DNA from: Methanoculleus sediminis
GTDB taxonomy: Archaea > Halobacteriota > Methanomicrobia > Methanomicrobiales > Methanoculleaceae
DNA: 64,000 nt
Assembly: GCF_001017125.1 (NCBI RefSeq)
Contig: NZ_JXOJ01000004.1
Coordinates: 124,001 to 188,000, forward strand
Reading direction: 5' to 3'
In this document: in pieces, positions 5,485 to 59,242 of the stretch
How the letters are laid out: every line of letters starts with the position of its first letter
Numbering within the stretch: position 1 is the first letter of the stretch
Translations under genes and position numbers: made by a program
Notes under the pieces: model-generated
Seen by the model: only the letters and a program-made list of their open reading frames with translations
Databases searched by the model: none
What the model was told of the DNA's origin: nothing

Positions 5485-6046
5485 GGACCTTCCTCGTATG
5501 GGAGTGTGGGCGAGAGCGAGGATAATGGTGCGGTTTTTTGGTGCGGCGAGGGTAGCGATTCGATGGATGGATGCATGGGATTGGTGTGCAACTGCCCGGT
5601 ACGCTGGACCGTGGGGGTATCGCCCCTGGGGGAACGACGCTCCGTAGGAGCGGAGTTCGAGAAACCCGAAGGGTTTCGCTGTGGGGCTTGACGGGGAGTG
5701 CGACGGGCGAGACGGCCGGAGCATGAGCACCGGAGGTGCGTCGGGGGGAGAATCCCCCCTCCCCTGTCTCCAAACGGACATTACGCCTGTAACCCCCACC
5801 CCTCCCGGCCTTCGGCCTCCTCCCCCGCCCCCCTGGGGGCGGGGGCAGTCATGGCGATACCCCCACGGAAGCCGTTGACGGGGCTATACAACTGTTAGTA
5901 GAGTTTTACGGGGTAGAGGCCGGTGTATCTGGCTTGTTGGGGATATCTCGGGTCTGCTTCGCTTGCGGACATGAACACCCTCCGCTACCCGAAAAACCTA
6001 AAAAAGAGAACCAGGGGGAGCAACCCCGCTCCCCCGCCGTTCTCAC
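5485..6046. repeat. Gene-free region with chained mini-hairpins
   Basis: There is no credible gene between the CMD gene start and the thiC stop. From about 5600 to 5860 the sequence is a chain of short palindromes: CTCCGTAGGAG, AAACCCGAAGGGTTT, CACCGGAGGTG, GGGGGGAGAATCCCCCC, GGCCTTCGGCC and CCCCCGCCCCCCTGGGGGCG. They are joined by linkers such as GGAGTTCGAG and GGAGCATGAG. The same hairpins and linkers recur in inverted orientation at 57990-58434. The right end holds the thiC terminator. Confidence 0.65.
6000..6035 (-). terminator. Terminator of thiC
   Basis: A perfect 8-bp stem (GGGGGAGC / GCTCCCCC, loop of 6) at 6014-6035 lies just beyond the thiC stop. On the minus strand it is followed by TTCTC and a run of six T residues at 6000-6005. 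This has both hairpin and U-tract and reads in the thiC direction. Confidence 0.65.
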
Positions 6047-37300: not shown

Positions 37301-37831
37301 CTACCGGCGAACACGGTATCCGGCCGCCGTGAGAATATCGATGAGGGCGTCATCCCATTCCGTGCCGGAGAGGCCGTTCAGCGTCGGCTGCACCCGTTCC
37401 CAGAGCCGTCTGAGTTCCTCGGTGTCCGGGAGGAACGTTGTTTGGTACATCACCCGCCCGGCCCTTTTGCCCTGTGCATCGAGGATGAGAAACCGCCAGC
37501 AGCAGTAATCGCGACATATTTCGGGGCGCGTCAGGTGGACCGTACACCATGCCTTTCCCGTCTTTCCGTCGAGTGCGATGTTCCCATGGGACGGAGCAGG
37601 AGAATCCCGGGCGGTTTCGAATCTCAGAAAGGGGCATGCGTCCGGCAGTTCCGCGATGCTGCTCTCATCCTCGAAGAGGGCGATCTTGTCCGGGTCGACC
37701 CGCACCTCCTTCACGTCCCCGCTGTAGGCGTTGTACACGACAAAGGTGTAGTTGCCGCGCTCTTCGATAATCGTGTGGACGTTTCTCATGCTGCTGCAGC
37801 AGCTGCCGCACTGGCAGCACCTACATGCCAT
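37301..37831 (-). CDS. YkgJ family cysteine-cluster protein
   Basis: This 176-residue protein has an N-terminal CRCCQCGSCC cluster and further cysteines in DACPFL, KAWCTVH and ICRDYCCWRF. That is the C-rich pattern of the YkgJ/UPF0153 family, believed to bind zinc or an Fe-S cluster. The middle strand region VYNAYSGDVKEVRVDPDKI is typical of the methanogen version. The function is unknown. It is a single gene. The downstream hydrolase is convergent and about 36 bp away. Confidence 0.82.
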   Translation of the reverse strand: MACRCCQCGSCCSSMRNVHTIIEERGNYTFVVYNAYSGDVKEVRVDPDKIALFEDESSIAELPDACPFLRFETARDSPAPSHGNIALDGKTGKAWCTVHLTRPEICRDYCCWRFLILDAQGKRAGRVMYQTTFLPDTEELRRLWERVQPTLNGLSGTEWDDALIDILTAAGYRVRR

Positions 37832-57486: not shown

Positions 57487-57601
57487 GATGATCCCGTGAT
57501 CCTGTTTGAGGCCCGGATGCTATAGCGTTCCGGTATTCGCCGGCAGAGGTGCGCAGGTTTATCATCTCTGCGGCAGCACCACGGGCGCGGAGAGATGTCG
57601 T

Positions 57602-57889
57602 ATGATCACGATCGTTGCACGGTGCAGCATAAAGCCCGAGAAGGCCGATGAGTTCATGGAGATAGCCCGGGACCTGGTCGATGCGAGCAGGCGCGAGGAC
57701 GGAAATATCTCGTACGACCTCTACGCGAACCTCACTGACCCCGCGAGGTTCACGTTCATCGAGGTCTGGAACGACCGGGCTGCAATTGATTCTCACAACG
57801 AGACGGCGCACTTCAAAGGCTTCGGGGAGAGAGCGGGGCCTCTGTTTGCCGGGCCGCTCGATATCGGTCTGTACCGGAAAGTTGTCTGA
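57602..57889 (+). CDS. Antibiotic biosynthesis monooxygenase (ABM) family protein
   Basis: This 95-residue ferredoxin-like dimer protein has ITIVARCSIKPEKADEFMEI, SRREDGNISYDLYANL, FTFIEVWNDRAAIDSHNE and the C-terminal HFKGFGERAGPLF. These match the YgiN-type quinol monooxygenase group; whether it oxidises quinones in an anaerobe is doubtful. Several archaeal members are annotated only by family. ATG 57602 follows GGAGAG. Confidence 0.86.
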   Translation: MITIVARCSIKPEKADEFMEIARDLVDASRREDGNISYDLYANLTDPARFTFIEVWNDRAAIDSHNETAHFKGFGERAGPLFAGPLDIGLYRKVV

Positions 57890-57927: not shown

Positions 57928-57993
57928 TCTCGCGCGAAGCCGCGAGGGAGCATTGCACACCCATCTACCATTCTTCGCGTCCTTCGCGGGTCG
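57928..57993. repeat. Extragenic hairpin element, degenerate copy
   Basis: TCTCGCGCGAAGCCGCGAG at the left and CTTCGCGTCCTTCGCGGG at the right match the hairpin family at 26051 and 45908 with mismatches. It is followed by linkers and mini-hairpins (CACCTTCGGTTCTCC, CTCCGCAGGAG) leading into the next element. Confidence 0.7.
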
Positions 57994-58070
57994 CACCTTC
58001 GGTTCTCCAACTCCGCTCCGCAGGAGCGTCGTTCTTCGTGTTAGATAACAGGTGCAGATAACGATACAGC

Positions 58071-58434
58071 CTCACGCGAAGAGCGCGAAGCCGCGAAGGG
58101 GAGTTACCATACCCATCTGCCGAACTTCGCGTTCTTCGCACCTCGCACCTTCGGTGCTCGAACTCCGTTCCTCTAGGAACGTCGTTCCTACCGGTGCTCA
58201 CGCTCCTGCCCACGCACCTAACGGTGCTCCAGCTCCGTTCGCACCGATCGGTGCTCATGCTCCGGCCCCGAAAACGCTTCGCGTTTTCTCATGCTCCTGC
58301 CGTTCCGGCGGTCGCACCCTTCAGCCCGTCGCATTCCGGAGGAACGTCGCACCTTCGGCCAGTCGCGCTTCGCGGCTCGAAGCCTACGGCTTCTCAAACT
58401 CCTTCCCCAAAGGGGAAGTCGTTCTTCGCGTGAG
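58071..58434. repeat. Long extragenic element: mini-hairpin chain in a terminal inverted repeat
   Basis: The ends are inverted repeats: TCACGCGAAG at 58072 and CTTCGCGTGA ending at 58433. Inside lies a chain of distinct short palindromes: GCACCTTCGGTGC, GTTCCTCTAGGAAC, GCACCGATCGGTGC, AAAACGCTTCGCGTTTT, AAGCCTACGGCTT and TTCCCCAAAGGGGAA. They are separated by linkers such as CTCGAACTCC, CTCATGCTCC and CTCACGCTCC. The same chain type is at 5600-5860 in the other orientation. It lies between convergent genes and codes for nothing credible. Confidence 0.8.
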
Positions 58435-58525
58435 ATTAGATCGATTCGAAGTCTTTCGGTCTTCTTCAGCTCTAGCGAACCACCGCATCTCGCACCCCGT
58501 GCGAGCCCAGATCGCTGTCCATAAT

Positions 58526-59242
58526 TTACGCAAACCGCCGGATGCCGGCGAGCGGCGGAAGGACGACCGCCTCGCCGTCGACCTCCACCACCGGCTGGAG
58601 GCTTCCTGCATCCACGCGGCGGAGGATGGGCGAGAGGAAGTCCCGGCTCCTTGCGTAGTTGATCATGACGCCGGGGGAGAGCGGATTGAATGCAGGCAAT
58701 ACGATGATGTCTCTCCCGCGCACCACCCCCTCCCCATAGAGGAAGCAGGGGAACCGGGCGAGGTCGATCTCGATCGCCGGGTGATCGTGGCCGATGATGA
58801 GCGTTCCGTGGTCTTCGACCGCCTGATCGCCGTGGACCACCGTGTAGCCGCCGCGGTCGTAGCGCTCGACCGACCCTCCCCTGATCGCCGGCAGCATGAC
58901 GTCGTGCGATCCCCGGACGAGGACGACCTCGCACCTGGCCTTCAGTGTCGCGAGGATCGTCTGAAACGTCTCCTTCACGTCCCGGCTCACCCGGTCGAAG
59001 GCGTGGAAGATGTCCCCGTCGAGGACGAAGGCCTCCGGCTTGAACCGGCCGAGGATCGCCTCGAACCGTTCGAGGAGCGTCTCCTCCTCGTGGAGCGGGA
59101 AGTGGAGCCCCTGCCGGTAGAGCGCCTCGGAAAGTCCGATATGGACGTCGGAGACGACGCAGAGGGACTGCTCCCTGACGTAGAGCGCGCCCTTGTAGAA
59201 GCCGAACCGGGAGAGGAGGTCGGCCTCCGTGACCGCGTTCAT
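58526..59242 (-). CDS. Metallophosphoesterase (COG1407, Lhr-associated)
   Basis: This 238-residue calcineurin-like phosphoesterase has metal motifs CVVSDVHIGLS, VLDGDIFHAFD, LVRGSHDVML, VVHGD and IIGHDHPAIE. Many archaea encode this COG1407 family next to a Lhr-type helicase, and here the two overlap by 4 nt with the helicase first. A role in nucleic acid end processing with Lhr is inferred from that linkage. The start is at ATG 59240-59242. Confidence 0.93.
   Translation of the reverse strand: MNAVTEADLLSRFGFYKGALYVREQSLCVVSDVHIGLSEALYRQGLHFPLHEEETLLERFEAILGRFKPEAFVLDGDIFHAFDRVSRDVKETFQTILATLKARCEVVLVRGSHDVMLPAIRGGSVERYDRGGYTVVHGDQAVEDHGTLIIGHDHPAIEIDLARFPCFLYGEGVVRGRDIIVLPAFNPLSPGVMINYARSRDFLSPILRRVDAGSLQPVVEVDGEAVVLPPLAGIRRFA

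Follow-up and report, generated by a model that had tools for sequence, protein, structure and literature searches.

What occupies the gap between two convergent genes of the archaeon Methanoculleus sediminis, where at positions 57928-58434 of the window (the whole 64,000-nucleotide stretch of DNA analysed here) short palindromes follow each other, and how did it arise? The neighbouring genes, named by eye, are a 127-aa antibiotic-biosynthesis-monooxygenase-like ORF (57506..57889, + strand) and, convergent with it, a 238-aa metallophosphoesterase-like ORF (58526..59242, - strand), which served as orthology anchor. An earlier note on this DNA had described a linear chain of at least ten different mini-hairpins with near-constant linkers and inverted repeats at the outer ends, either kept for structure rather than sequence or grown by copying with variation. 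Sequence comparison now makes it highly probable that copies of an ultra-short, non-autonomous mobile element, each with two hairpins, are stacked in this chain.

Architecture of the chain and of its unit

The palindromes and linkers named in the earlier note were located at 57928-58434, which confirms a chain of short palindromes with near-constant linkers. The linker CTCNNNCTCC occurs 51 times across the window, an approximately 2.4-fold excess over shuffles (21.7 +/- 4.7), and seven copies are crowded into 58005-58402. The span comprises two neighbouring elements, A (approximately 57930-58046) and B (approximately 58070-58436). As deduced from the removal of units, these are two palindromic scaffolds of about 80 nt that bear seven units of 44-51 nt, nested to a depth of at most four levels. 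The arrangement is nested instead of linear, its quantum is a double-hairpin unit of about 45 nt, and several of the ten or more palindromes counted before are the two halves of a single hairpin split by another unit.

On the + strand, the unit reads (T)CG, hairpin 1, TC-NNN-CTCC, hairpin 2, GTCG-NN. With 44-51 nt it is too short to have coding capacity, and a single diverged gene was ruled out as explanation of the chain, which consists of non-coding hairpin units. Terminal inverted repeats were not found in the unit, its ends (T)CG... and ...GTCGNN not being inverted repeats, whereas the scaffolds do have inverted ends. The linkers are conserved as described, but they are of two distinct kinds in strict alternation, CTCNNNCTCC inside the unit and GTCG at its end. 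Similarly, the sequence variation among palindromes holds for hairpin 2, whose stem of 5 bp, closed by a loop of 3-4 nt, occurs in many versions (GTTCC, GGCCC, GGACG, GGATG, GGTTC, GCTCC, TGCCG, TGTCC, TTCCC and more), but much less for hairpin 1, which comes in a few main types (GCACC..GGTGC, GAAAAC..GTTTTC, GAAGACC..GGTCTTC, GAAGCC..GGCTTC and others).

Element A (57930..58046, + strand), delimited from the sequence and by innermost-first unit removal, consists of a type-1 palindromic scaffold (TCGCGCGAAG...TTCGTGTTAGA) and one unit, A1 (57992..58035, + strand; model R1 match 57991-58031, E 1.9e-21, and removal), with hairpin GCACCTTCGGTTC, linker CTCCAACTCC, hairpin GCTCCGCAGGAGC and the end GTCG-TT, which includes a 2-nt duplication. 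Element B (58070..58436, + strand), delimited likewise, is a type-1 scaffold (CTCACGCGAAG...CTTCGCGTGAG) with six nested units, all on the + strand, which make up 282 bp of 374 bp (to 58443). Its units were removed from the inside outwards. The innermost, B5 at level 4 (58269..58319; model match 58279-58314; step 1), has hairpin GAAAACGCTTCGCGTTTTC, linker CTCATGCTCC, hairpin TGCCGTTCCGGCG and the end GTCGCA with CCC duplicated, and lies within the hairpin 2 loop of B4. B4 at level 3 (58240..58335; step 2) holds B5 and lies within hairpin 2 of B3 (GTT^CCGGAGGAAC, TT duplicated), while B3 at level 2 (58212..58353; step 3) holds B4 and B5 and lies within the hairpin 2 loop of B1 (TGCCC^TTCGGCCA, CC duplicated). 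The other level-2 unit, B2 (58144..58189; model match 58143-58184, E 8.2e-23; step 4), sits in the hairpin 1 loop of B1 (GCACC^TACCGGTGC, CCT duplicated). B1 itself (58137..58370; level 1; step 5), the holder of B2-B5, interrupts the scaffold at GCGTT[CTT]CGCGG with CTT duplicated. B6, also at level 1 (58378..58425; model match 58377-58421, E 2.4e-10; step 6), has hairpin GAAGCCTACGGCTTC, linker CTCAAACTCC, hairpin TTCCCCAAAGGGGAA and the end GTCGTT with CT duplicated. Removal of the six units with their 2-3 nt duplications reduced 374 bp to 92 bp (flanks included), and the residue, CTCACGCGAAG-AGCGCGAAG-CCGCGAAGGGGAG...CTTCGCGTTCTTCGCGGCTTCGCGTGAG, aligns across the excision points to unoccupied scaffolds in the source and other Methanoculleus genomes (14 matches, each covering 85% or more of the residue).

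Most of the Methanoculleus searched contain the type-1 scaffold, and weak matches come from another genus of the order (G047, G056); it is also present in G012 and G034, both with very few units. It is a repeat of its own, older than the unit and more widespread. The inverted repeats at the outer ends of the chain exist, but belong to this scaffold, which occurs empty as well.

The second chain, announced for 5600-5860 in reverse orientation, is real and consists of two units within a second palindromic scaffold (type 2, ends GTGGGGGTATCGCC...GGCGATACCCCCAC; 5611..5866, no strand assigned), recognised from the sequence and from a unit-free orthologous scaffold in G004. The units, of 49 bp (5634..5682, - strand; model match 5635-5669, E 3e-13) and 45 bp (5698..5742, - strand; model match 5701-5741, E 4e-23), are both missing at the orthologous site in G004, a difference of 49 + 45 bp. 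This second scaffold family, with ends GGGGATATCGCC..GGCGATATCCCC, differs from the CTCACGCGAAG type and hosts units at window 5611-5866 and in L009, L020, L021, L022 and L150. In stretches of G004 and G005, some type-1 scaffolds lie within older inserts with IS-like ends (GAGGCTTTGTTGAAA..TTTCAGCAGAGCC; GGGCTCTGTAGAAAACC), a further level of nesting. A partial unit-like match (linker and hairpin 2, E 7e-7) at window 37576-37614 (- strand) lies inside a 176-aa ORF and may be a chance match or the trace of an old insertion into that gene.

Covariation was evaluated in 54 distinct units, which were picked by linkers, hairpin 1 end letters and spacing without demanding stem pairing. Hairpin 1 pairs at 5/5 positions in 48 of the 54 spacing-selected units, hairpin 2 at 4/5 or more in 48 of 54, and 93.5% of the cells form the proposed pairs. 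In hairpin 2, both-sided changes occur at 5/5 pairs. Over the whole set, double-changed cells number 77 versus 24.9 +/- 3.7 after shuffling. The covariation score, a measure inflated by kinship among units, was 0.377 versus 0.100 shuffled and at most 0.109 in slid controls. We regard the conclusion as safe, because the slid controls are low and the stem types varied: judged by these substitution patterns, the linkers are conserved, while the stems, hairpin 2 above all, vary with compensatory change. This bears out the suggestion that structure is kept over sequence.

Copy number and empty sites among relatives

In the 2.49-Mb source genome, the module CTCNNRCTCCG-N6-16-CGTCG gave 70 matches versus 2 for the reversed pattern. 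The genome-wide search with a linker-hairpin model, which the earlier note had proposed, was run as a 41-position structure model and returned at least 160 units in M. sediminis, a lower bound because scoring was limited to 150 candidates; among 35 Methanoculleus genomes the same model found from 1 to more than 170 units per genome. Tandem arrays of identical-scoring 45-bp units occur at G008:C1:1923560-1923960 (at least 9), at G007:C7:9836-10011 and in C9 and C15 of G009, and runs of N, evidently not resolved by assemblers, interrupt arrays in L011, L015 (source genome) and L176. Unit counts in draft genomes are probably too low. Outside the genus, forward pattern counts were near the reversed control in class and phylum samples. 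Haloarchaea-like pattern matches at phylum level were rejected; the sequences listed lack palindromic structure and resemble fortuitous matches in GC-rich coding DNA. For one exact module, the matches listed came from Methanoculleus, from Methanomicrobiales or Euryarchaeota MAGs, from one UBP9-binned contig and from one Methanoregulaceae contig, the last two probably misbinned. The contig L133 (DCTU01000288.1), binned as bacterium UBP9, carries one unit and 93%-identical Methanoculleus DNA.

Comparison between Methanoculleus strains, likewise proposed before, revealed that both copy number and insertion sites vary and that empty orthologous sites exist. At the window site itself, the gap between the same two convergent genes measures 635 bp here versus 17 bp in G007, with a similar situation in L086 and L096. 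Loci totalling 2.5 Mb, taken from many genomes of the genus, yielded 36 indels of about one unit, of which approximately 20 were left after dropping protein-gene artefacts; repeated +55 bp indels relative to L098 were discarded as lying inside a protein gene. These roughly 20 single-unit gains at orthologous sites measure mostly 44-50 bp. The best single-unit difference, 46 bp between L284 and L251, is flanked by 10.1 kb at 97% and 4.3 kb at 94%. Whole units also appear at unit-free sites, as in GGATA^TCGCC (G008 vs G005) and in the scaffold GCGTTCTT^CGCG (L129 vs L030). At L123:4381-4431, a 45-bp unit lies in frame and adds 15 codons (about KATFRRNGARAPEVRG) to a 244-aa methyltransferase-like ORF, whose relative in L122 reads straight through with the unit missing. 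Such alignments show that the unit is gained or lost one whole copy at a time with fixed borders.

Insertion rules and candidate mechanisms

The insertion rules were derived from 40 distinct cases of a unit within hairpin 2 of another unit. After unit removal, the host loops measure 5, 6 or 7 nt, while empty loops have 3 or 4, sometimes 5; occupied loops are 2-3 nt longer than empty ones, which points to a short target-site duplication. An exact duplication of 2-3 nt (TT, CT, CTT, CCT, CC, CCC, TCC) is present in 33 of the 40 events. The host arms pair at 4/5 or more positions around the insert in 20 of 22 hosts, compared to 6.0 +/- 1.8 with right arms shuffled, host pairing not being required in the selection. 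Among 40 isolated units, the duplication signal is weak (7 matching 3-mers where 2.1 would be expected, and no significance at single positions). Flank 3-mer matches for all units (84 vs 27.8) fall to 21 vs 7.1 when thinned to distinct flanks; estimating the duplication length from the flanks of all units was dropped, since it is inflated by tandem and related copies, and we therefore relied on the loop-length test. Two clean insertions (L150/L128, L162/L154) lack a duplication. Hence, a 2-3 nt duplication is well supported for loop targets only. Nested units always share the orientation of their host (48:0), and within type-1 scaffolds every unit in GGAG orientation stands before those in CTC orientation (10:0), an order that would be expected if an asymmetric pyrimidine-rich target sets the orientation. 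The targets are indeed pyrimidine-rich and very often lie on the 5' side of the loop in the hairpin of an existing unit.

Because of the copy number, the empty orthologous sites, the precise borders with duplication and the orientation rule, we interpret the unit as a mobile, non-autonomous element. Growth by copying with variation, as suggested before, is borne out insofar as entire two-hairpin units insert into pre-existing hairpin loops. Through repeated rounds of insertion, the nested chain has grown within palindromic scaffolds that are older than the units. A trans-acting enzyme might recognise the shape of the folded unit, with its two hairpins, and the unpaired motifs (CTCNNNCTCC, GTCG), not the stem sequence, make a target cut with a 2-3 nt stagger and insert the copy in fixed orientation. 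Compensatory stem changes could be kept because only well-folded units move, or because template-switching repair restores the palindromes. The likeliest candidate for the mover is a DNA integrase of the host or derived from an IS, because neither Y1 transposases nor reverse transcriptases were detected in the source genome.

It is rather unlikely, by comparison, that the folded unit is copied through RNA (retrotransposition), a route suggested for the double-hairpin elements of Allomyces. This would fit a single-strand fold with conserved linkers, RNA folds that for both strands are much more stable than those of shuffles (z -8.7 and -7.0) and short duplications compatible with target-primed insertion. 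However, reverse transcriptase (RVT_1) was undetected in 32 of 35 genomes, the source among them, and stem mismatches of the G-U and A-C kinds (12 vs 20) display no asymmetry that would mark one strand as RNA, thus giving no sign of a transcribed RNA as the selected form.

It is also improbable that units are immobile and increase in number solely through replication slippage, unequal recombination and gene conversion among arrays already present. The tandem 45-bp arrays in G008, G007 and G009 and a 159-bp difference between L107 and L056, bounded by the repeated motif GGAGTT, speak for such events, but whole units with fixed borders at unit-free sites (G008 vs G005, L129 vs L030, the methyltransferase-like gene in L123) and the 2-3 nt duplications in loops do not follow from them. 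As the tandem arrays and the loss between shared linkers in L107/L056 show, slippage and recombination nevertheless also alter the unit number and reshape chains afterwards.

We give little credence to a functional structured RNA, bidirectional terminator or mRNA-stabilising array selected for the host. The position between convergent genes and the covarying hairpins speak for it, but the units are missing at the same site in close relatives, lie also within coding sequence and inside one another, range in copy number from near zero to more than 170, and Rfam gave no match at gathering score in the window.

Y1 elements are not known to leave a target duplication, unlike the 2-3 nt seen with units. 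That the unit is of REP/RAYT type and is mobilised by a Y1 tyrosine transposase of the IS200/IS605 family acting on single-stranded hairpins is scarcely credible, despite the hairpins with short unpaired tags, one of them GGAG-like, the intergenic position and the occurrence of REPs in palindromes (PMC3733652), given that the stem sequences are not conserved and that Y1_Tnp (PF01797) was undetected in the source genome and in 28 of 35 genus genomes, the others being mostly unit-poor (G012, G020, G023, G031, G034) with the clear exception of G018. That Y1 transposases occur mostly in unit-poor members of the genus (G034: 19 matches) could be an effect of phylogeny.

Related elements and implications

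No named repeat class was found for the genus, in agreement with the earlier note, which had recognised none. In contrast to a MITE, the unit lacks terminal inverted repeats matching an IS, though it has a short target duplication (33/40 nested, weak in isolated units). Rickettsia palindromic elements are short palindromic inserts that can lie in frame within genes. They have a conserved sequence and are generally longer, whereas only one in-frame case (L123) was found for the unit. With GTAG and CGTC REPs and REPINs/RAYTs, the unit shares short tagged hairpins in prokaryotic intergenic DNA, and for the CGTC type, as for the unit, no transposase is known; it differs in stem length and sequence, tag position, dimer layout and the lack of a detected RAYT in the source genome (PMC3733652, PMC3116915). 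A GTAG-REP/REPIN needs a GTAG-type tetranucleotide at the end of a sequence-conserved 6-13 bp stem, whereas the unit has 5-bp stems of many sequences and the linker CTCNNNCTCC. A CGTC-REP has its tag at one end, an 8-9 bp stem starting A-T and a CCA-like tail (PMC3733652), whereas the unit carries GTCG 3' of hairpin 2 and 5-bp stems. Both assignments were rejected.

The unit resembles mitochondrial double-hairpin elements and GC clusters; the likeness is one of form and common descent is not expected. Allomyces mtDNA double-hairpin elements and sponge mtDNA hairpin elements are, as summarised in part of PMC2800124 (citing Paquin et al. 2000), short, dispersed, non-coding and of different frequency between close relatives, as is the unit, which has the two discrete stem-loops and the single-unit presence/absence polymorphism of a double-hairpin element. 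Unlike the Allomyces elements, which the same summary gives as lacking flanking duplications, it resides in an archaeal chromosome, keeps its linkers fixed while its stems vary, and has duplications of 2-3 nt. The yeast mtDNA GC cluster GC42 is hairpin-forming, about 42 nt long and polymorphic in presence, with a putative 2-nt (AG) target duplication and merging and shuffling of units; its stems are conserved and its loops vary, whereas in the archaeal chromosomal unit compensatory change accompanies the variation of the stems, and conservation lies in the linkers (PMC4478555). Short palindromic repeats of about 50 nt in Volvox organelles are mutually inserted into composites of hundreds of nt; they are organellar and conserve loops rather than linkers, and the portion of PMC2670323 that describes them gives no target duplication or orientation rule.

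An earlier description in archaea was not found in the open-access literature, and an account in a subscription journal may exist. The nearest prior notice appears to be a list of M. marisnigri satellite families with periods of 45 and 51 nt, likened here by period alone, which the relevant part of PMC6749651 describes only as tandem repeats, with no hairpin, mobility or nesting reported. These satellites of the same genus are possibly tandem runs of the unit, again by their period alone.

We suggest only tentatively that, among units known to transpose precisely in prokaryotes, this one of about 45 nt is the smallest; it would be recognised by its fold and two short unpaired motifs instead of its stem sequence, be inserted into hairpin loops in one orientation, with a stagger of 2-3 nt, by a class of enzymes new to such a role, and nest recursively. 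The case also contains a warning: a selfish hairpin element can show covariation, which is usually read as strong evidence for a functional RNA. Most descriptions of elements that are this small and nest in one another come from mitochondria and chloroplasts, where the mechanism is still open. The archaeon studied here is free-living and can be cultivated, has well over a hundred copies as well as many sister sites that are unoccupied, and shows clear rules of insertion, which makes the mechanism testable.
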